This document shows positions 1,840-11,159 of a DNA stretch of 26,104 nucleotides, in pieces (position 1 is the stretch's first letter; every line of letters starts with the position of its first letter). The notes under the pieces were generated by a model. That model was not told the origin of the DNA. It did not search any database and worked only from the letters and a program-made list of their open reading frames with translations. The stretch covers positions 1 to 26,104 of the IMG/VR virus record IMGVR_UViG_3300027759_000377. One strand, written 5' to 3'. The translations under genes were made by a program, and so were the position numbers. Source of the stretch: a virus.

Positions 1840-1913
1840 ATCCCCGTAGCCCAACAGGCAGAGGCATTGGACTTAAAATCCATTCAGTATGAGTTCGAAT
1901 CTCATCGGGGATA
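1840..1913 (+). tRNA. tRNA-Leu(UAA), with a short variable loop
   Basis: Acceptor ATCCCCG/CGGGGAT, T arm ATGAG-TTCGAAT-CTCAT and anticodon loop CTTAAAA give anticodon UAA and discriminator A73. CCA is not encoded. Bacterial tRNA-Leu normally has a long variable arm, but here it is five bases (TCAGT), as in class I tRNAs. The base pair 27-43 is T-T. Identity as Leu rests on the anticodon alone. Confidence 0.8.
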
Positions 1914-1935
1914 CAAAAAAAATATTAAAAAAGAT

Positions 1936-1966
1936 TTGGCAGATTGGAAATGATTACATATCTTTG
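1936..1966 (+). promoter_or_regulatory. Bacteroidota-type promoter (TTGG ... TATCTTTG)
   Basis: TTGG at 1936-1939 and TATCTTTG at 1959-1966 are 19 bases apart. A close relative of this promoter occurs at 3881-3911 (both contain GATTTGG and ACATATCTTTGT), suggesting duplication within the array. Confidence 0.65.
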
Positions 1967-1986
1967 TTGAACAAAAGGAATAAAGG

Positions 1987-2080
1987 TGTGTGATTGTAAG
2001 AAACGGGAAACTCGTAAAGTACATTAACCTGTTAACACAAAATGGTGAAACGAGAGTGTGTGTTAACTACTGAATCACAA
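1987..2080 (+). ncRNA. structured spacer RNA with a long hairpin
   Basis: An outer stem TGTGATT (1989-1995)/AATCACA (2073-2079) encloses a nine-pair hairpin GTTAACACA (2031-2039)/TGTGTTAAC (2059-2067) and a small hairpin CGGG-AAA-CTCG. No tRNA features or reading frame are present. It would be the first product of the promoter at 1936-1966. Confidence 0.45.
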
Positions 2081-2089
2081 AATGAAAAA

Positions 2090-2222
2090 TTGTGTTGTTC
2101 CTTGAGAAACAAGAGTGCGGTCGTACCAGTGGTATATTATTAAGGGTGGTTAAAAAACAAATACTATATTAAGGATGGCGGCGGTACACCACACAACACA
2201 GAGGACTTCTCACCCTCAAATT
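2090..2222 (+). ncRNA. three-copy pseudoknot RNA, copy A
   Basis: The 5' strand TGTGTTGT (2091-2098) pairs with ACAACACA (2193-2200). A terminal hairpin GAGG...CCTC (2201-2217) carries loop bases TTCTCA that are complementary to TGAGAA at 2103-2108. The element ends in CCTCAAATTT directly before the tRNA-like element at 2224. Copies B (3021-3122) and C (4731-4814) share every one of these parts while their middles differ. I recognise no known RNA family. Confidence 0.6.
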
Positions 2223-2223
2223 T

Positions 2224-2344
2224 AGTCAGGTAATACGTAATGTGAAAAAGGTAGCACATCCTGAAAACGCCACGGTTCATAATCACTTGGACGCGAGAAG
2301 TCATAAAGGTTGTATTGTTGCAGGTTCGAATCCTGTCCTGACTA
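2224..2344 (+). tRNA. tRNA-like element 1 (AGTCAGG family), enlarged
   Basis: Acceptor AGTCAGG/CCTGACT and T arm GCAGG-TTCGAAT-CCTGT are normal. A D-like hairpin ATGTG-AAAAAGGTAG-CACAT is present but shifted. At 121 nt it is far too long for a tRNA, and no 17-nt anticodon arm can be drawn. A loop-like string TTCATAA (anticodon CAU) occurs without flanking complementarity. It could be a tRNA with insertions, a decayed tRNA or a tRNA mimic. Confidence 0.5.
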
Positions 2345-2545
2345 CAAATGACACATAGAAAGACAAACAAGTAATTTGGTGTATTGAACACAGGAGACAA
2401 AAAATTCATTACAACACTACAAGAGGTGTTATGTTTGTTGAGTATGATAATATGTAACTGAAACATTGTAAGATATTACAATACCACCGAAAGGAAATGT
2501 AAGTGAAAAGTTATCCCATGTCTTGGTGGATGTGTTTTTTTTAAT

Positions 2546-2633
2546 AGGTGAGTGGCGGAATGGTAGACGCTATCCGATTATCGGAGAGGCCGAGTTAAAA
2601 ACGGCGTTATGGGTTCGAATCCTTTCTTATCTA
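2546..2633 (+). tRNA. tRNA-Leu-like element, probable UAA, extra hairpin before the anticodon arm
   Basis: Acceptor AGGTGAG/CTTATCT and a D arm GGCGGAATGGTAGACGC, typical of tRNA-Leu, are clear. After the D arm comes a hairpin TCCGA-TTA-TCGGA, then GCCGA-GTTAAAA-ACGGC, whose loop reads UAA. Only three bases (GTT) separate this from the T arm. The extra hairpin that normally forms the variable arm therefore appears before, not after, the anticodon arm. Alternatively the TTA-loop hairpin is an aberrant anticodon arm. Confidence 0.6.
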
Positions 2634-2638
2634 CAAAT

Positions 2639-2684
2639 CTCAAGAAGTTGCTATCTTGAGGCTGACAGGTTCGAAACTGTCGAT
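2639..2684 (+). ncRNA. two-hairpin half-tRNA-like spacer
   Basis: Two adjacent hairpins, CTCAAGA/TCTTGAG and GACAG-GTTCGAAA-CTGTC, look like an anticodon-type arm followed by a T arm, but there is no 5' acceptor or D arm. This may be the remnant of a tRNA or a structured linker between two tRNA-like elements. Confidence 0.4.
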
Positions 2685-2767
2685 TGATTATGGTGTATGG
2701 GGCACATCAGAACGGAGTAGGTTGACGAAACAGGAGAGGGGTAATGGTTCGAATCCATTTTAATCAG
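2685..2767 (+). tRNA. tRNA-like element, anticodon unclear
   Basis: Acceptor TGATTA/TAATCA (six pairs plus a T-T), T arm AATGG-TTCGAAT-CCATT and a small D-type hairpin GTG-TATGGGG-CAC are visible. The 51 bases between the acceptor and T stems match class II length, but no seven-base loop with U33 and a paired stem can be drawn. A hairpin GTTCGG/CCGAAC follows at 2772-2792. Confidence 0.45.
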
Positions 2768-2796
2768 CAAAGTTCGGAGTAATTAACCGAACCTAA

Positions 2797-2858
2797 CAAG
2801 AAGATGATTCACATAGCTTAAAGTGATTTGGTACCACTAATTACTGGTTGTCTTCTTG
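2797..2858 (+). ncRNA. structured spacer hairpin
   Basis: CAAGAAGA (2797-2804) pairs with TCTTCTTG (2851-2858), enclosing 46 bases that contain GTG...CAC and GGTACC self-complementary pieces. It lies four bases before the next tRNA-like element. Confidence 0.35.
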
Positions 2859-2862
2859 AATA

Positions 2863-2936
2863 ACTACTTATGGTGTAAATTGGTTTGCACATCGGCAATC
2901 GCCGAAGGGTTGTAGGTTCGAGTCCTATGGGTGGTT
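2863..2936 (+). tRNA. tRNA-like, normal length but no standard anticodon loop
   Basis: Acceptor ACTACTT/GGGTGGT (with G-U pairs), D arm GGTG...CAC and T arm GTAGG-TTCGAGT-CCTAT give a 74-nt molecule of ordinary class I size. The anticodon region reads TCGGC-AATC-GCCGA. It folds with a four-base loop (or TCGG/CCGA with a six-base loop), and U33 is absent. It may not decode at all. Confidence 0.55.
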
Positions 2937-2942
2937 CAAATA

Positions 2943-3016
2943 TAGCAGGCGGGAGGTATAGTATCTCGCCGGTCTCATAAGCCGGTTTAACTTGGTGCGA
3001 TTCCAAGGCGTTGCTA
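2943..3016 (+). tRNA. tRNA-Met(CAU)
   Basis: The anticodon arm CCGGT-CTCATAA-GCCGG is clear (anticodon CAU), with D arm GGGA-GGTATAGTA-TCTC and T arm CTTGG-TGCGATT-CCAAG. The acceptor is weaker (TAGCAG pairs with TTGCTA), with two or three unpaired bases near the T stem. CAU may also be a lysidine-modified Ile; elongator versus initiator cannot be decided. CCA is not encoded. Confidence 0.75.
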
Positions 3017-3020
3017 CAAA

Positions 3021-3122
3021 TGTGTTGTTCCTGTGAGAAAGGAATGTAGGAAGGAACAGGAGAGAAACAATACGAAAGTATGAATCTTACTCACAACACA
3101 GAGGAGTTCTCATCCTCAAATT
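3021..3122 (+). ncRNA. three-copy pseudoknot RNA, copy B
   Basis: TGTGTTGT (3021-3028) pairs with ACAACACA (3093-3100). The terminal hairpin GAGGA-GTTCTCA-TCCTC (3101-3117) carries a loop complementary to TGAGAA (3033-3038). The middle contains a GNRA hairpin ATAC-GAAA-GTAT. The element starts directly after tRNA-Met and ends at CCTCAAATTT, two bases before tRNA-Ile. Confidence 0.6.
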
Positions 3123-3123
3123 T

Positions 3124-3197
3124 ACCGATGTAGCTCAATAGGTGAGAGCAGGACGCTTATATCGTCAAGGTTATGGGTTCGACCCCCGTCATCGGTA
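3124..3197 (+). tRNA. tRNA-Ile(UAU)
   Basis: This is a full cloverleaf: acceptor ACCGATG/CATCGGT, D stem GCTC/GAGC, anticodon loop CTTATAT (anticodon UAU, codon AUA) and T arm ATGGG-TTCGACC-CCCGT. A73 is present and CCA is not encoded. AUA is common in this phage's genes, so the tRNA fits its codon use. Confidence 0.9.
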
Positions 3198-3389
3198 CAA
3201 ATGAAACCAACAGAAGTCCGACTTGCACGGATGAAAGGAACCTTGACTTCATGGGATTAGCTACCCAAACGAAGAGAGATAAATGACTCAAGGTACTCTG
3301 TTTAGGACCCTGCTCTGATGTGCACGTCAACAGGTGATGGGGAACAAACCATCTATAAAATCCCGAATTAAAAATGGTTTCATTTATTT
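3198..3389 (+). ncRNA. structured spacer RNA between two tRNAs
   Basis: These 192 bases hold no gene. They can pair as ACCTTGA with TCAAGGT, GGG-ATTAGCTA-CCC inside that stem, and a hairpin GATGG...CCATC near the 3' end; two GTGCAC-like segments may also interact. Function unknown. Confidence 0.35.
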
Positions 3390-3463
3390 GCGGGTATAGC
3401 TCAATTGATTAGAGTGTCACCCTTCCAAGGTGAAAGTTGTGGGTTTGAGTCCCACTACCCGCT
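3390..3463 (+). tRNA. tRNA-Gly(UCC)
   Basis: Acceptor GCGGGTA/TACCCGC, D stem GCTC/GAGT, anticodon arm TCACC-CTTCCAA-GGTGA (anticodon UCC) and T arm GTGGG-TTTGAGT-CCCAC form a standard cloverleaf with T73. CCA is not encoded. Confidence 0.9.
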
Positions 3464-3468
3464 CAATA

Positions 3469-3568
3469 GATAGGATATTATTCCAATTAAAACTGGAATC
3501 ACGCCTAGTATGGGTTAATTACCCATTGATGAAGGGATATAAATGAGAGGTTCCCTTTAAGTCCTATC
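3469..3568 (+). ncRNA. four-way-junction RNA, cloverleaf-like but not a tRNA
   Basis: The outer stem GATAGGA (3469-3475)/TCCTATC (3562-3568) encloses exactly three hairpins: ATTCCA/TGGAAT (3480-3499), TGGGT-TAATT-ACCCA (3511-3525) and AAGGGA/TCCCTT (3532-3557). The geometry resembles a tRNA cloverleaf, yet there is no T loop, no GG in a D loop and no anticodon loop. It lies between tRNA-Gly and tRNA-Ala. Base pairing is seen directly; function is unknown. Confidence 0.5.
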
Positions 3569-3667
3569 GACGTTATTAAAATGACTTTTTCAAGGAGTAA
3601 GATCCACAGGGTTGCAAACAGAAAACCGGAAAATTCACTCACCAGTAATTTTAAGGTGGGGAAATAT

Positions 3668-3746
3668 GGGCTGGCATGTTCCAAGGCTTCGGCGAGAAAC
3701 ATTTGCAATGTTTTTGAGATGGGTTCGATTCCCATCCGGTCCACCA
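3668..3746 (+). tRNA. tRNA-Ala(UGC), CCA encoded
   Basis: Acceptor GGGCTGG/CCGGTCC, A73, encoded CCA, anticodon arm AAACA-TTTGCAA-TGTTT (anticodon UGC) and T arm ATGGG-TTCGATT-CCCAT are clear. The D region is long and pairs poorly, and the G3-U70 identity pair of tRNA-Ala is present as G-T in the DNA. Identity is therefore well supported despite the odd D arm. Confidence 0.85.
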
Positions 3747-3768
3747 AATAAACAATTAATATAAACGA

Positions 3769-3897
3769 ATGATGAAAGAAGTTTTATCAGGAACTTTCAA
3801 ATCAGGAAAAGTAAATTTTGTTAAAACTAACATAAAAACTGATTTGTTGAGAAAACTGAAAAGGAAATTAAAAAAAAGATTTGGTAAATTAAAGTAA
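3769..3897 (+). CDS. 42-residue basic peptide, unknown
   Basis: A short frame within the tRNA array starts MMKEVLSGTFKSGKVNFVKT and ends in a Lys/Arg-rich tail (KLKRKLKKRFGKLK). It fits between tRNA-Ala and the promoter for tRNA-Glu. Two ATG codons are adjacent. The basic tail suggests nucleic-acid binding, but this is only an impression and the frame may be fortuitous. Confidence 0.45.
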   Translation: MMKEVLSGTFKSGKVNFVKTNIKTDLLRKLKRKLKKRFGKLK

Positions 3898-3911
3898 TAC
3901 ACATATCTTTG
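3881..3911 (+). promoter_or_regulatory. Bacteroidota-type promoter (TTGG ... TATCTTTG)
   Basis: TTGG at 3881-3884 and TATCTTTG at 3904-3911 are separated by 19 bases. It overlaps the end of the small basic ORF and lies 36 bases before tRNA-Glu. It is a sister of the promoter at 1936-1966. Confidence 0.7.
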
Positions 3912-3946
3912 TCAAACAAACAAAATGAGTAAAATCATTTTAATTT

Positions 3947-4019
3947 CGCCCGTTGGACAAGCGGTTAAGTCGTTTCCCTTTCACGGAAAAGATCATGGGT
4001 TCGAATCCCATACGGGTGA
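3947..4019 (+). tRNA. tRNA-Glu(UUC)
   Basis: Acceptor CGCCCGT/ACGGGTG, anticodon arm TTTCC-CTTTCAC-GGAAA (anticodon UUC) and T arm ATGGG-TTCGAAT-CCCAT form a standard cloverleaf. CCA is not encoded. Pair 2-71 is a G-T. Confidence 0.9.
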
Positions 4020-4079
4020 CAGAATAGGGGAATAATAGTTGTCTGTACTACCCCCACCTTTCAATGGTATACAGGATTC

Positions 4080-4152
4080 ACCCCCATCGTCCAACTGAAT
4101 AGGACACGCCCCTTCTAAGGGTGGAATCGGAGTTTGAATCTCTGTGGGGGTA
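4080..4152 (+). tRNA. tRNA-Arg(UCU)
   Basis: Acceptor ACCCCCA/TGGGGGT, D stem GTCC/GGAC, anticodon arm CGCCC-CTTCTAA-GGGTG (anticodon UCU, codon AGA) and T arm CGGAG-TTTGAAT-CTCTG are present. AGA is the main Arg codon in the phage genes here. CCA is not encoded. Confidence 0.9.
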
Positions 4153-4163
4153 CAAACAAATTA

Positions 4164-4236
4164 TGCCAACCAAGCATTACTACGATACGGGTTCATACCT
4201 GTGGGTTAGGGGTGACGATCAGGAAAGACTGATAAC
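4164..4236 (+). ncRNA. short T-arm-like and hairpin spacer
   Basis: ACGGG-TTCATA-CCTGT resembles a T arm and is followed by a hairpin ATCAG-GAAAGA-CTGAT. AACC and GGTT flank the first hairpin as a weak acceptor-like stem. It could be a minihelix-type tRNA remnant; function unknown. Confidence 0.3.
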
Positions 4237-4239
4237 TTT

Positions 4240-4315
4240 GGTCCCGTGGTTGAATGGTTACAATTCCACCCTGTCACGGTGCGAGATGCGGGTTCGAATC
4301 CCGTCGGGACCGCCA
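4240..4315 (+). tRNA. tRNA-Asp(GUC), CCA encoded
   Basis: Acceptor GGTCCCG/CGGGACC, G73, encoded CCA, anticodon arm CCACC-CTGTCAC-GGTGC (anticodon GUC) and T arm GCGGG-TTCGAAT-CCCGT are canonical. This is the most host-like tRNA in the array. Confidence 0.93.
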
Positions 4316-4360
4316 AAAAAAAGTTCATTGACATAAATAGATTGGTAAGATAGCAGATAG

Positions 4361-4522
4361 ACCTATATCGGCAGAATCCCATAGGGAATCAGAAATGATG
4401 AGCAAGATGGAGCCCCTATCAGATTAACGGGTTGAGGAGGCACTCAAAGTTTTCCGAGAGGTTAACAGGTATATAAACGATGGTTTGGGTAGAACGGATG
4501 TTGAAGGCGAGATATAGGTAGT
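4361..4522 (+). ncRNA. multi-branched structured RNA 1
   Basis: ACCTATATC (from 4365) pairs over nine bases with GATATAGGT (ending near 4521). Inside are TCCC-ATA-GGGA and TTGAG-GAGGCA-CTCAA hairpins and further complementary pieces (GATGG/CTATC, AACGGG/AACAGG-type). No convincing gene or tRNA lies within it. It sits between tRNA-Asp and structured RNA 2. It matches no family I can name. Confidence 0.45.
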
Positions 4523-4577
4523 AAGGATGAGGTGACTCACGAATAAGTAAATCTTAAGGTCTTGCCTTTTTTAAAAT

Positions 4578-4729
4578 ATTGATAGTGGTTTTCCCCATTC
4601 AACGGATGTCGACAATCCAGAATGGATAAGGAATTCATCACCCCCTGAAAAGGACAGTGCCGAGGCCTCGTAAAACTACGATTATGCACTTAAGATTGGA
4701 GCGAGACGGGTACTCCATCACTATCAACA
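4578..4729 (+). ncRNA. multi-branched structured RNA 2
   Basis: The outer stem TTGATAGTG/CACTATCAA (nine pairs) closes about 150 bases. Enclosed helices, in order, are CCATTC/GAATGG with inner GGAT-GTCGACA-ATCC; CCT-GAAA-AGG (a GNRA loop); AGTGC/GCACT holding CGAGG/CCTCG and CGTA-AAAC-TACG; and TGGAG/CTCCA. So many nested helices are unlikely by chance. It is followed at once by copy C of the pseudoknot RNA. Confidence 0.55.
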
Positions 4730-4730
4730 A

Positions 4731-4814
4731 TATTGTGTTGTTCCCTTGAGAAAGGAAGGCTAGATGGTTAATTATTATGCATAACCCAATACAGAGGTTC
4801 TCAACCTCAAATTT
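4731..4814 (+). ncRNA. three-copy pseudoknot RNA, copy C (shortest)
   Basis: TGTGTTG pairs with CAATACA (one G-U where copies A and B have G-C). The terminal hairpin is GAGGT-TCTCA-ACCTC: its fifth pair is T-A where copy B has A-T, a compensatory change. TGAGAA at the 5' side is again complementary to TTCTCA. The middle is reduced to a hairpin GGTTA/TAACC. The element ends in CCTCAAATTT before the tRNA-like element at 4815. Confidence 0.6.
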
Positions 4815-4951
4815 AGTCAGGTGTTGTGGAATAACTTTGGTAATGCGGATGTATACGCAAGCATTACACGGTAGGTAAAGCAAAGAGTAATTACTTTGTG
4901 TGACTAATAAAGGAATCGTCCTTTGAACCTGTTCAAATCAGGTACTGACTA
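4815..4951 (+). tRNA. tRNA-like element 2 (AGTCAGG family), enlarged
   Basis: Acceptor AGTCAG/CTGACT and T arm ACCTG-TTCAAAT-CAGGT are intact. Between them lie a seven-pair helix GTAATGC/GCATTAC with an inner GCG/CGC, a hairpin CAAAG-AGTAATTA-CTTTG that could be an anticodon arm, and AAAGGA-ATCG-TCCTTT, shaped like a long variable arm. At 137 nt it reads as a class II tRNA with a large insertion in the D region. Anticodon not assignable. Confidence 0.5.
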
Positions 4952-5011
4952 CTCACGGTTCTCAATAGACATTTTAAATGGAATTGATGACAGTTGGAAA
5001 GACAACAACAT

Positions 5012-5093
5012 AGTCAGGTGGCACAATGGTTGACGGTTGGTGCTGGGCAGATGCTCCTCCAAAGGTATACAGGTTCGAATCCTGTCCTGACTA
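5012..5093 (+). tRNA. tRNA-like element 3 (AGTCAGG family), possible Trp
   Basis: Acceptor AGTCAGG/CCTGACT and T arm ACAGG-TTCGAAT-CCTGT are perfect. The loop-like string CTCCAAA (anticodon CCA, Trp) occurs, but its flanks do not pair and no variable loop would remain before the T arm. GCAC/GTGC can form a D-type stem with a 15-base loop. Length is 82 nt. Decoding ability is doubtful. Confidence 0.5.
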
Positions 5094-5109
5094 CAAAAAT
5101 ATAGAAAGT

Positions 5110-5289
5110 ATGAAAATTAATATCAATTATTGCTCAACGAAGCATTATGATAAAACGAACATTACTCAATGGATGTGGATGTTCAAAAGATACAAAAATG
5201 TAAAAGGATTTATCTGTCGAATATTTGGAATATACATAAATGTTCGAGAAAATAATGCTACAGATAAACTTATAGCTAAAAGTAAATAG
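5110..5289 (+). CDS. 59-residue unknown protein inside the tRNA array
   Basis: The frame from ATG at 5110 encodes MKININYCSTKHYDKTNITQ and continues WMWMFKRYKNVKGFICRI. An upstream ATG at 5026 would lie inside the preceding tRNA-like element, so the later start is preferred. The stop codon TAG overlaps the first bases of the next tRNA-like element. There are two Cys and several aromatic residues, and no family is recognised. Confidence 0.5.
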   Translation: MKININYCSTKHYDKTNITQWMWMFKRYKNVKGFICRIFGIYINVRENNATDKLIAKSK

Positions 5290-5391
5290 TCAGGTGGCGG
5301 AATGGTAGACGCTAAAATAATGGGTGGATAGCGTGCCATTGGGGTAGAACCAAGAAAGTTACGCATACAGGTTCGAATCCTGTCCTGACTA
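5288..5391 (+). tRNA. tRNA-Leu-like element (AGTCAGG family), possible UAG
   Basis: Acceptor AGTCAGG/CCTGACT, the Leu-type D arm GGCGGAATGGTAGACGC and T arm ACAGG-TTCGAAT-CCTG are clear. TTGG-GGTAGAA-CCAA could be the anticodon arm (UAG), but position 33 is G. About 25 extra bases separate it from the D arm, and ACGCTA/TAGCGT or AATGG/CCATT can pair there. Length is 104 nt. Confidence 0.55.
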
Positions 5392-5412
5392 CAAAAAAAT
5401 TAAATTATTATT

Positions 5413-5616
5413 ATGAAGGATTTTATCACTATATTGACAACATTTGTTGTTATGTTTATTGGACTTATTAGTTATATACATTTCTTGTCGTCGGAACTCA
5501 CATATACCTCGGCAATTGCTGGAGGAATAGGTGTTATTATTGTTATAAGACCGGCATGGGATAAATGGAAAGAAAGATTTGACAAATTGTTTTGGAGAAA
5601 AGAAAAAAATGATTAA
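5413..5616 (+). CDS. small two-span membrane protein, unknown
   Basis: This 67-residue protein has a hydrophobic segment at about residues 5-27 (ITILTTFVVMFIGLISYIHF), a second at about 32-46 (TSAIAGGIGVIIVI), and a basic, aromatic C-terminus (KWKERFDKLFWRKEKND). The size and topology are compatible with a small holin or a membrane-altering early protein, but it does not sit beside the cell-wall hydrolases. A host-type promoter overlaps its 3' end. Confidence 0.6.
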   Translation: MKDFITILTTFVVMFIGLISYIHFLSSELTYTSAIAGGIGVIIVIRPAWDKWKERFDKLFWRKEKND

Positions 5617-5621
5617 CTTTG
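5592..5621 (+). promoter_or_regulatory. Bacteroidota-type promoter (TTGG ... TAACTTTG)
   Basis: TTGG at 5592-5595 and TAACTTTG at 5614-5621 have an 18-base spacer. The ATG of the next ORF begins five bases after the -7 element, roughly where transcription should start, so its mRNA may be leaderless. Confidence 0.65.
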
Positions 5622-5625
5622 TGGT

Positions 5626-5790
5626 ATGGAAAGATATTCAATGAAAGAGGTTCTTATAAACAGATTTGGTGAATCTGAAAAGAACGCAAAGACAAGTAGA
5701 AACACAACACGATCAACAAAAAAATCAGGTGATAATGGTAAATATGTTACTAAAATTGTTGATGGTGTTAAGTATATGGTATTAAAATAA
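5626..5790 (+). CDS. 54-residue unknown protein, probably leaderless
   Basis: The product starts MERYSMKEVLINRFGESEKN, passes through a Thr/Ser/Lys-rich linker (KTSRNTTRSTKKSGDNG) and ends KYVTKIVDGVKYMVLK. A promoter whose -7 element ends five bases before the ATG supports its expression. No family is recognised. Confidence 0.6.
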   Translation: MERYSMKEVLINRFGESEKNAKTSRNTTRSTKKSGDNGKYVTKIVDGVKYMVLK

Positions 5791-5801
5791 CATTTATAAA
5801 A

Positions 5802-5894
5802 ATGAGTAGATTATGGTATTTGGTGGCGTATTTAACAGGTGTTTTGACAGGTATCGTTATTAGTGCGATAGTTATTAAATCCTTTTTTTTATAG
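5802..5894 (+). CDS. 30-residue single-span membrane peptide candidate
   Basis: The frame MSRLWYLVAYLTGVLTGIVI then SAIVIKSFFL is almost entirely hydrophobic and would span a membrane once. It begins 11 bases after the previous stop and its own stop overlaps the next tRNA-like element. So short a frame could be fortuitous. Confidence 0.4.
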   Translation: MSRLWYLVAYLTGVLTGIVISAIVIKSFFL

Positions 5895-5997
5895 TCAGGT
5901 GGCGGAATTGGTAATCGCTCTTTAAGGTTCCGTAGTCGGAGTAATAAATCAAACCTTATATGACACTTACCAACAGGTTCAAATCCTGTCCTGACTA
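5893..5997 (+). tRNA. tRNA-Leu-like element (AGTCAGG family), possible CAA
   Basis: Acceptor AGTCAGG/CCTGACT, Leu-type D arm GGCGGAATTGGTAATCGC and T arm ACAGG-TTCAAAT-CCTGT are present. ATCAAAC resembles the Leu-CAA loop and is followed by CTTAT and a 13-base class II-like variable region. The 5' partner TAAGG lies 26 bases upstream, with a hairpin TCCG-TAGT-CGGA in between, as if about 19 bases were inserted in the anticodon loop. Length is 105 nt. Confidence 0.55.
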
Positions 5998-6000
5998 CAA

Positions 6001-8701: not shown

Positions 8702-9841
8702 CAAAAATCGGAAACGTCCGAAATGAAAAAATTGAAATATTGATGATTAAAACAGTCTAGGTCCGTAGGGCTACTGTTGTGTGTGAGGAAAGTGACTACG
8801 GGACAAACATTTAACTGTATGAAACAAAGCAGAAGTCCTTCGCATTTAAAGTGTAAGTGTAATATATTACCGCAATAGTTATATCATTAATTCGTTCTTT
8901 GAAAGATTAGATATCCATTCAGGAGTATACGAAATATCTACGGATTAAACGTAAAAACTGATAAAGATATTGGGCCGTATATAGTCCATAAAATAAACTA
9001 CGAAAGTAGGATAAAGTGAACCCTTAAGTGTGTTGGGTTTGCGGTTTAGGAAACTGAACTTGAGTATACAAGCGGGATACCGTGTAACCTTTAGTACCGA
9101 GGTCAACGATGTAGGGAAAATGGTTAAACGATTGGGCGATGTGGGTCGTCTGATTGAGATGGGAACATCAATAGGAATAACCCGTAGGAATATTGCAAAA
9201 AATATGATTATCCGATTATATGATTGCGTGTTCCAATATGATAGGTAACTTAAAACCGAAAGGTATGACAACAAACAGGTGGTGCTGACATTGTCCCTGA
9301 CGGAACTCTACCAAGGGTTTAGTTTTGAAGTAATCTTGAGATATGGGAATGGGGACATTTCAAGGAGTAGTTTGGTATTTTGTTGTTCAAAAGACGACGA
9401 AGCTGACAGACGGACCACTACTTCTATCAATCCACGACACAAAAACTTTAGTGTTAATGAAGTAACATTTATAAACTTAAAGCAAAAGTGTCCGTCAGGT
9501 AATAGCGAAAGGTGACTACATAGTAATGAGCCGTTCATTGCACAGAAGGATCGCAAGTCTGACTGTATTCTTACCAAAAACCTCTATTCCCGCAAGGAAG
9601 AGTTGGGGAGGCATCCTCGAAGAGAGTTGAGTAATGAGAGAGTAGCTATTACCTCAAGGAGTGATTCACCTAAATAATCGTCACTGAGGATTACTTCTCA
9701 AAAGGAAGTGGATACGAAGGGAAACAATAATCCTTCAAAAGATTCTCAACAAAAACTGTAATCTCAGGTTTTTATTTTTTAGGTAAAACTTATTAAGTTA
9801 AAAAAATTAATTAGGGGCGATGTGAATCAGTCCCTTTTTTT
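8702..9841 (+). ncRNA. giant structured non-coding RNA (GOLLD/ROOL-like candidate)
   Basis: About 1.1 kb without a convincing gene follows two strong host-type promoters and ends at terminator-like hairpins. Local helices are abundant: GTCCGTAG with CTACGGGAC (8761-8804), TAGATAT/ATATCTA (8908-8940), CTAC-GAAA-GTAG (8998-9009), GGAACA...TGTTCC (9162-9234), a long-range ACGGA-CACU with AGUG-UCCGU pairing (about 9411-9493), TTCC-CGCAA-GGAA (9587-9599) and GAGG-CAT-CCTC (9608-9618). Known GOLLD and ROOL RNAs are phage-associated, 500-1000 nt, ornate and near tRNA genes, which fits. I cannot match a family consensus by eye, so the assignment is inference while the non-coding, structured nature is seen. 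Confidence 0.65.
9812..9841 (+). terminator. rho-independent terminator after the giant RNA
   Basis: AGGG...CCCT with a 15-base loop is followed by seven T. A second, weaker hairpin plus T-rich run lies at about 9756-9779; either could set the 3' end of the RNA. Confidence 0.6.
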
Positions 9842-10746: not shown

Positions 10747-10752
10747 AATAAG

Positions 10753-11159
10753 TGGAGGTGCGGAGGCTCGAACTCCGGTCCATAACATCCCGTAAAACAA
10801 GGACTACACGTTTAGGTTGACATTTTCTAATGTCCCAAAATAGAAGGTTTTTTCACATCAGAACCGACAAACAGATATAGTCAAACCAAATTACCCCCTG
10901 ACTATTAGAGGTTGTTCCTTTTCGGGTAGAAACCACACCCTTTGTAGGGACTTCTGTTGCTAGGTTGTATGTCCACCGACCCCCGTTTCCGTATACTTAT
11001 TAAGCTACAGTAACTTCAGAAGTACGAACTAATCCGATAACTTCCATTTTGTTTAGCACATTGCCATTTGTTTTTCTGAATCAGTTTTTAAGGAGATTAA
11101 TTCAGTCCCCACGTGCCCTTTATTTTCAGCCGACATCTGTCAAATCCAAAAACACCCCC
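10753..11159 (-). ncRNA. ssrA: tmRNA (transfer-messenger RNA)
   Basis: On the minus strand the 5' end GGGGGTGTTTTTGGATTTGA matches the tmRNA 5' signature, and the 3' end has T arm CGGAG-TTCGAGC-CTCCG and acceptor CACCTCC that pairs with GGGGGTG (one G-U). CCA is not encoded. The internal frame ends with tandem stops TAATAA at about 11002-10997; read backwards, the tag ends NKMEVIGLVRTSEVTVA. Downstream pseudoknot-like helices (for example ATAGTCA/TGACTAT) are present. tmRNA rescues stalled ribosomes and tags the nascent protein for proteolysis. The C-terminus ...TVA is unlike the usual ...LAA of bacterial tags. The resume codon is not certain. Length 407 nt is normal. Confidence 0.92.

Follow-up and report, generated by a model that had tools for sequence, protein, structure and literature searches.

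A widespread phage RNA family with mutually complementary, covarying loops, found in tRNA arrays and within a larger RNA

What is the element that recurs three times in the transfer RNA (tRNA) array of a metagenomic phage, each time close before a tRNA or a tRNA-like RNA? The array lies in the window, by which we mean the whole 26,104-nucleotide (nt) stretch analyzed here (IMG/VR virus record IMGVR_UViG_3300027759_000377), and an earlier note had described the element as a pseudoknotted RNA under selection for structure. The reading that we favor, with a probability of roughly 0.6, is that the copies belong to a new orphan family of structured phage RNAs, which has a P1-P2-P3-P4 fold, would be released from the tRNA array, and would serve as a trans-acting module.

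The pattern GAGGN{0,4}TTCTCAN{0,3}CCTCAAATTT, which describes the 3′ hairpin, occurred exactly three times in the window (at 2201, 3101, and 4794) and not once in 100 dinucleotide shuffles of it. The three copies, called type I copies A to C below, were confirmed where they had been reported, and they are listed here with their stems and the elements that follow them:

2091..2217, plus strand, type I copy A (127 nt, divergent subfamily), P1 2091-2098/2193-2200, P4 2201-2217
~2103-2108, plus strand, TGAGAA of copy A, then a long insert before the P1 3′ strand
2218..2223, plus strand, AAATTT spacer after copy A
~2224-2343, tRNA-like RNA 3′ of copy A, acceptor AGTCAGG/CCTGACT
3021..3117, plus strand, type I copy B, P1 3021-3028/3093-3100, P4 3101-3117 with TTCTCA at 3107-3112
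3034-3039, plus strand, TGAGAA loop of copy B P2, whose stem is TTCC/GGAA
3118..3123, plus strand, AAATTT spacer after copy B, directly 5′ of tRNA-Ile (3124-3198)
4734..4808, plus strand, type I copy C, P1 4734-4740/4787-4793, P4 4794-4808 with TTCTCA at 4798-4803
4741-4744/4754-4757, plus strand, P2 of copy C (TTCC/GGAA), with TGAGAA at 4747-4752
4766-4770/4782-4786, plus strand, P3 of copy C (GGTTA/TAACC)
4809..4814, plus strand, AAATTT spacer after copy C, then a tRNA-like RNA at ~4815-4951

P1 closes a junction that contains hairpin P2, with the loop TGAGAA, and often a further hairpin, P3; P4 follows directly 3′ of P1. Both the shared closing stem (TGTGTTGT/ACAACACA in copies A and B, TGTGTTG/CAATACA in copy C) and the complementarity of TGAGAA to TTCTCA in all copies are present in the sequence as the earlier note had described them. 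Its structure was incomplete, having overlooked P2 and the variable hairpin P3, which abuts the P1 3′ strand and is clear in copy C; the TGAGAA that it listed as a 5′ sequence forms, in copies B and C, the loop of a separate hairpin. The proposed swap of the fifth P4 pair holds between copy B (A-T) and copy C (T-A), and in copy A an A stands unpaired opposite C. The boundary said to adjoin a tRNA or tRNA-like RNA could be specified: the AAATTT spacer is followed by a genuine tRNA after copy B and by long tRNA-like RNAs, rejected as tRNA by ARAGORN and by the Rfam tRNA model, after copies A and C. The copies themselves, in which P4 lies outside the closing stem, received no tRNA call from ARAGORN or cmscan. 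P4 as a mimic of the tRNA T-arm was dropped, its loop carrying no T-loop sequence. Covariance-model scores were 50.7 bits for copy A, 77.2 for copy B, and 71.0 for copy C (B and C being in the seed alignment); copy A, whose P2 register is uncertain, comes from a subfamily marked by a long insert and also seen in locus L183 and in copy 1 of locus L443. Thermodynamic folding of single copies gave z-scores of −1.1 to −2.1, which are weak by themselves and were left out of the evidence, so that the case rests on comparison.

Homologs beyond this genome, whose existence the earlier note had set as a test, were found in well over 100 other phage contigs with lengths up to 362 kb. Scanning viral contigs (IMG/VR) with the window's own 3′ pattern returned 16 stretches, and each of two relaxed pattern scans at least ~120 matches. 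A covariance model built from 55 sequences then gave 96, 87, 35, and 44 matches by search at the cut-offs used, at least 262 in total, with a few of the lowest-scoring ones probably due to chance; the first 218 comprised 175 distinct sequences, some contigs being near-duplicates. All records are metagenomic, and the 35 searched whole, none with a completeness estimate of 90% or more, carried one to four copies each, with 2-45 tRNAs in the 18 of them that were searched for tRNAs. The family is thus real and widespread among phages. In GTDB genomes the P4 pattern had at least 116 matches, with P1 and TGAGA in place in none among the matches listed; since these two parts were never in the right places, the GTDB matches are chance matches. 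One blastn query with the consensus, which is weak evidence, found no match in INPHARED phages. Approximately 40 family matches had no P4 hairpin and were designated type II, the division into types I and II being made by patterns.

The predicted stems were then examined for compensatory changes. In a MAFFT alignment (A2), 98.4% of cells paired and 7 of 21 pairs showed two-sided changes; none of 500 shuffles reached any of the five observed measures, and sliding the partners by 1-3 columns lowered pairing from 98% to 55% or less. A larger set, for which the two halves were aligned against the consensus with the middles removed, showed two-sided changes in 13 of 22 pairs for type I (n = 141) and 7 of 17 pairs for type II (n = 41). 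Examples are TATGCTG/CAGCATA (L010) and TGTGATG/CATCACA (L030) in P1, and AAGG/CCTT (L199) and GATG/CATC (L379) in P4; P2 stems differ among L010, L030, and L068 (type II) with pairing kept. By this comparison, P1, P2, and P4 are well supported, and the selection on structure that the earlier note had considered likely is borne out by covariation in the enlarged alignment, including that in the loop–loop pairing described below.

The sequence between P2 and the P1 3′ strand varies freely, and in many members it holds a P3 hairpin that ends flush against P1. In a shuffle test of 68 middles, 26% reached p < 0.05, with a combined p of 1e-14 that is too optimistic because the shuffles were mononucleotide and related middles were counted apart. 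Near-identical middles differ by compensatory P3 pairs (L069/L135, L120/L216, L076/L105), as in GTAACTA/TAGTTAC of L069 versus GCAACTA/TAGTTGC of L135. As judged from these comparisons, P3 is supported, at a weaker level than the other stems.

Because the earlier patterns themselves contained TGAGA or TTCTCA and could not test the contact between the two loops, the scans that followed left one loop, that of P4 or that of P2, unspecified. In the scan free in the P4 loop, 81 of 84 members with P1 had at least 5 nt complementary to the P2 loop, compared with 31% when loops were shuffled. Three targeted scans, two of which gave loci, asked only for a changed P2 loop and yielded four loci, one of them (L385) already seen in the P2-free scan; all four had the matching change in the partner strand: TTGGAA with TTCCAA in L385, TTAGAA with TTCTAG (one wobble) in L441, and TGATAA with TTATCA in L442 and L443. 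The P2-free scan also yielded L379, whose P2 loop is shorter and retains about four pairs. The array of L443 holds two adjacent copies, one canonical and one changed, and each matches itself. Together, these comparisons indicate that the P2 and P4 loops, which are mutually complementary and covary, pair with each other as judged by compensation, and the pseudoknot or kissing contact proposed in the earlier note is backed by the four compensated loci. Since both L443 copies match themselves, the predicted contact joins the loops of a single copy or of identical copies and does not link unlike ones.

Such a contact raises the question of whether the RNA assembles with itself. In phi29 packaging RNA (pRNA), a small phage RNA with a junction, two mutually complementary loops act between molecules of the packaging motor. 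The present family resembles pRNA in being a small phage RNA with a junction and mutually complementary loops, and differs in its variable P3 and tRNA-array setting, which pRNA does not have; the packaging role belongs to pRNA. By analogy, loops of the present RNA could pair between molecules and build head-to-tail chains or rings like those of pRNA, or cages like those of ROOL and GOLLD. We consider this a minor possibility: each copy carries both complementary loops, the variant copies each match themselves, and 13 of 35 family records, like the window itself, contain GOLLD RNA, but the partner strand of type II lies outside a hairpin, ~6 nt after P1, which fits a local intramolecular contact. 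Kissing loops help to hold ROOL and GOLLD multimers together (PMC12286853), and mutually complementary conserved loops, the feature of assembling RNAs of the pRNA or ROOL/GOLLD kind, are present here as the covarying P2 and P4 loops.

A different precedent is offered by viral exonuclease-resistant RNAs (xrRNAs), in which the loop of a hairpin pairs with sequence immediately downstream of the stem that encloses it. A pseudoknot of this type might stop a 5′-3′ nuclease and protect the transcript, which we regard as improbable for the present family. What the two share is the general topology, a closing stem around a hairpin whose loop pairs with the strand immediately downstream of that stem; junction, sequence, and host all differ, and the xrRNA models of Rfam did not match copies A-C.

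Type II RNAs place the same module in another scaffold. Their parts follow the order CTAAACATTGA ... ACATAAAGATAC ... [P1-P2-P3] AATGAGTTCTCAGC ... GTGACCCTACTC ... GAGGGTGCTAA, roughly 200-500 nt in total, with the TTCTCA strand ~6 nt after P1 and no P4 hairpin around it; this strand covaries with the P2 loop (L385, L441). Examples with constant blocks and variable hairpins between them are L137, L132, L187, L145, L195, L161, L130, L226, and L025. None of 37 type II copies started or ended within 10 nt of a detected tRNA, and no type II landmark occurs in the window. Type II had no Rfam match, sub-threshold matches included; a group I intron was considered for it and dropped, there being no such match. 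L379 (~1370-1620) appears as a hybrid with a type II-like upstream half and a P4-like hairpin, and its upstream ACATTGAACC is exactly complementary to GGTTCAATGT just 5′ of a T-run. P1-P2-P3 cassettes are nearly letter-identical between type I and type II and across phages (L025, L096/L182, L098/L172), as would be expected if the family were a spreading sequence repeat kept by recombination and devoid of RNA function. This explanation is very improbable, given that P1, P2, P4, and the pseudoknot all show compensatory changes and that the orientation relative to the following tRNA is constant.

We then examined the genomic setting of type I. With a detector that required a standard T-loop and a perfect 7-base-pair acceptor, a tRNA or tRNA-like RNA started within 10 nt after CCTCAAA in 64 of 129 distinct type I copies, nearly always at 0-3 nt, and one ended 3-5 nt upstream of P1 in 24 of the 129. 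After many of the remaining copies a tRNA that the detector overlooked visibly begins (e.g., after L003 and L007). Roughly half, or more, of the type I copies therefore directly precede a tRNA or tRNA-like RNA. The class with the AGTCAGG acceptor is enriched directly downstream of them (24/64 versus 200/1073, p = 6e-4). Both observations could mean that the element is a leader or spacer of the tRNA array, which would place or promote the cut at the next RNA and do nothing further once released. We judge this unlikely: the module is reused in type II outside tRNA arrays, some type I copies precede another type I copy or other recurring noncoding modules (L068, L073, L031, L057), and most tRNAs of the same arrays have no such element.

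Two recurring modules were seen downstream of type I copies: one, likely a further noncoding RNA, that carries GTGAACTTCGGTACCCATACCGCTGACGATGGGC or AAACTTCAGTTCCCACACAGCGGTGAGACGGGC (L021, L028, L062, L097, L023, L212, L228), and one with GAGATTTTTAAATCTCCTACTTACTTACG (L038, L101, L114, L119).

Under the favored reading of a released, trans-acting RNA, spacing suggests that type I RNA would be transcribed together with the tRNA array and then cut out as a separate RNA of roughly 75-170 nt by ribonuclease P and by tRNA 3′ processing of its neighbors. The main argument against tRNA processing as its core role is that type II lies outside tRNA arrays. We infer that the module acts in trans, as a compact unit for binding or assembly, instead of signaling tRNA processing: P1-P2-P3 and TTCTCA recur within a larger RNA away from tRNA arrays, and no protein gene consistently accompanies the family. 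Candidates for its partner are proteins, of the phage or of the host, and further copies of the RNA itself. No neighboring protein recurred near most copies; the commonest clusters, present in a minority of loci, resemble free-standing endonucleases by eye. Several points weigh against this reading. Spacing is the sole ground for release by tRNA processing, the covariation counts carry no phylogenetic null, and P3 was not evident in every member, as the 26% of middles above indicates. Contact within one molecule would seem sterically cramped, given that P4 abuts P1 directly, and in L421 a changed P2 loop (TTTGAAA) was seen with no good partner strand, making this locus either a counter-example or a decayed copy.

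Two further proposals bear on what the module might bind. As a decoy or antitoxin-like RNA it might capture a host defense nuclease or toxin, to which its small size, pseudoknot, multiple copies beside odd tRNA-like RNAs, and variable P3 would be suited; no recurring toxin or defense gene was seen beside the family, and this role is doubtful. More speculatively, P1-P2-P3 with TTCTCA could be a plug-in domain swapped as a cassette between the small tRNA-array RNA and the large stand-alone RNA of related phages, with P3 diversifying and the loop–loop contact assembling complexes used in infection; we offer this as a tentative idea, with the odds against it.

Comparison with known RNAs placed the family among no described one. 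Copies A-C had no Rfam 15 match at the gathering score or at expectation values (E) up to 10, so the absence of a known family claimed in the earlier note held, and for 15 homologous loci only tRNA appeared among the Rfam matches listed. No description of either RNA form was found in open-access papers, subscription journals lying mostly outside the search, which agrees with the note's view of an undescribed family. What is new is that no RNA family found includes the element; as a genre, structured phage RNAs of the orphan kind have precedents. The nearest comparisons are with RNAs of the same surroundings, which are listed here with the other noncoding features of the window:

~1840-6000, tRNA array
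3299-3360, freshwater-1 RNA (RF02979), Rfam match
9363-9770, GOLLD RNA (RF02032), Rfam model match and the sole GOLLD match in the window
10750-11159, minus strand, transfer-messenger RNA (tmRNA)

GOLLD is likewise a structured phage RNA found near tRNA islands, with kissing loops, and it co-occurs with the family in the window; it is far larger, many members exceeding 800 nt (PMC12286853), its conserved 416-position model does not match the family elements, and 22 of the 35 family records had no GOLLD match. ROOL shares the setting near tRNA islands and conserved kissing loops (PMC12286853) but forms a nanocage, and the family elements have no Rfam match to it. Freshwater-1 is an orphan RNA of the same tRNA array that differs in sequence and, flanked by two tRNAs, shares no positions with the copies. 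The family thus adds an RNA class supported by covariation, with a compensated loop–loop contact, to the few large-phage tRNA-island RNAs such as GOLLD and ROOL. One small module in two scaffolds offers a tractable object for questions of binding and assembly.

The window is a 26.1-kb virus record with T4-like packaging genes, a terminase and a portal protein, and its terminase is 27% identical to that of Flavobacterium phage immuto. The freshwater-1 match sits within a longer predicted fold at 3200-3385 (closing pair AATGAAACCA/TGGTTTCATT, −47.5 kcal/mol), so that RNA may extend beyond what the Rfam model covers. Immediately 5′ of copy C, at 4575-4730, lies a separate conserved RNA of ~145-157 nt that had no Rfam match (E up to 10); it is closed by TTGATAGTGG/CATCACTATCAA, a compensatory form GATAATG/CATTATC exists, and RNAs of this type stand 5′ of type I copies in 14 distinct cases. 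In the rumen Alphaproteobacteria metagenome-assembled genome RGIG4937, several contigs (L232, L267, L284, L304, L286) carry repeats of GAGGTTCTCACACCTCAAA with TGAGA ~105-110 nt upstream, which as far as seen are unrelated to the type I/II family. Long tRNA-like RNAs occur in the window at 2224-2343, 4815-4951, 5012-5094, 5288-5391, and 5893-5997, with the common acceptor AGTCAGG/CCTGACT, a T-arm, and irregular middles; across all loci, the median length is 100.5 nt for this class (200 distinct) and 74 nt for the other detected tRNAs (873 distinct).

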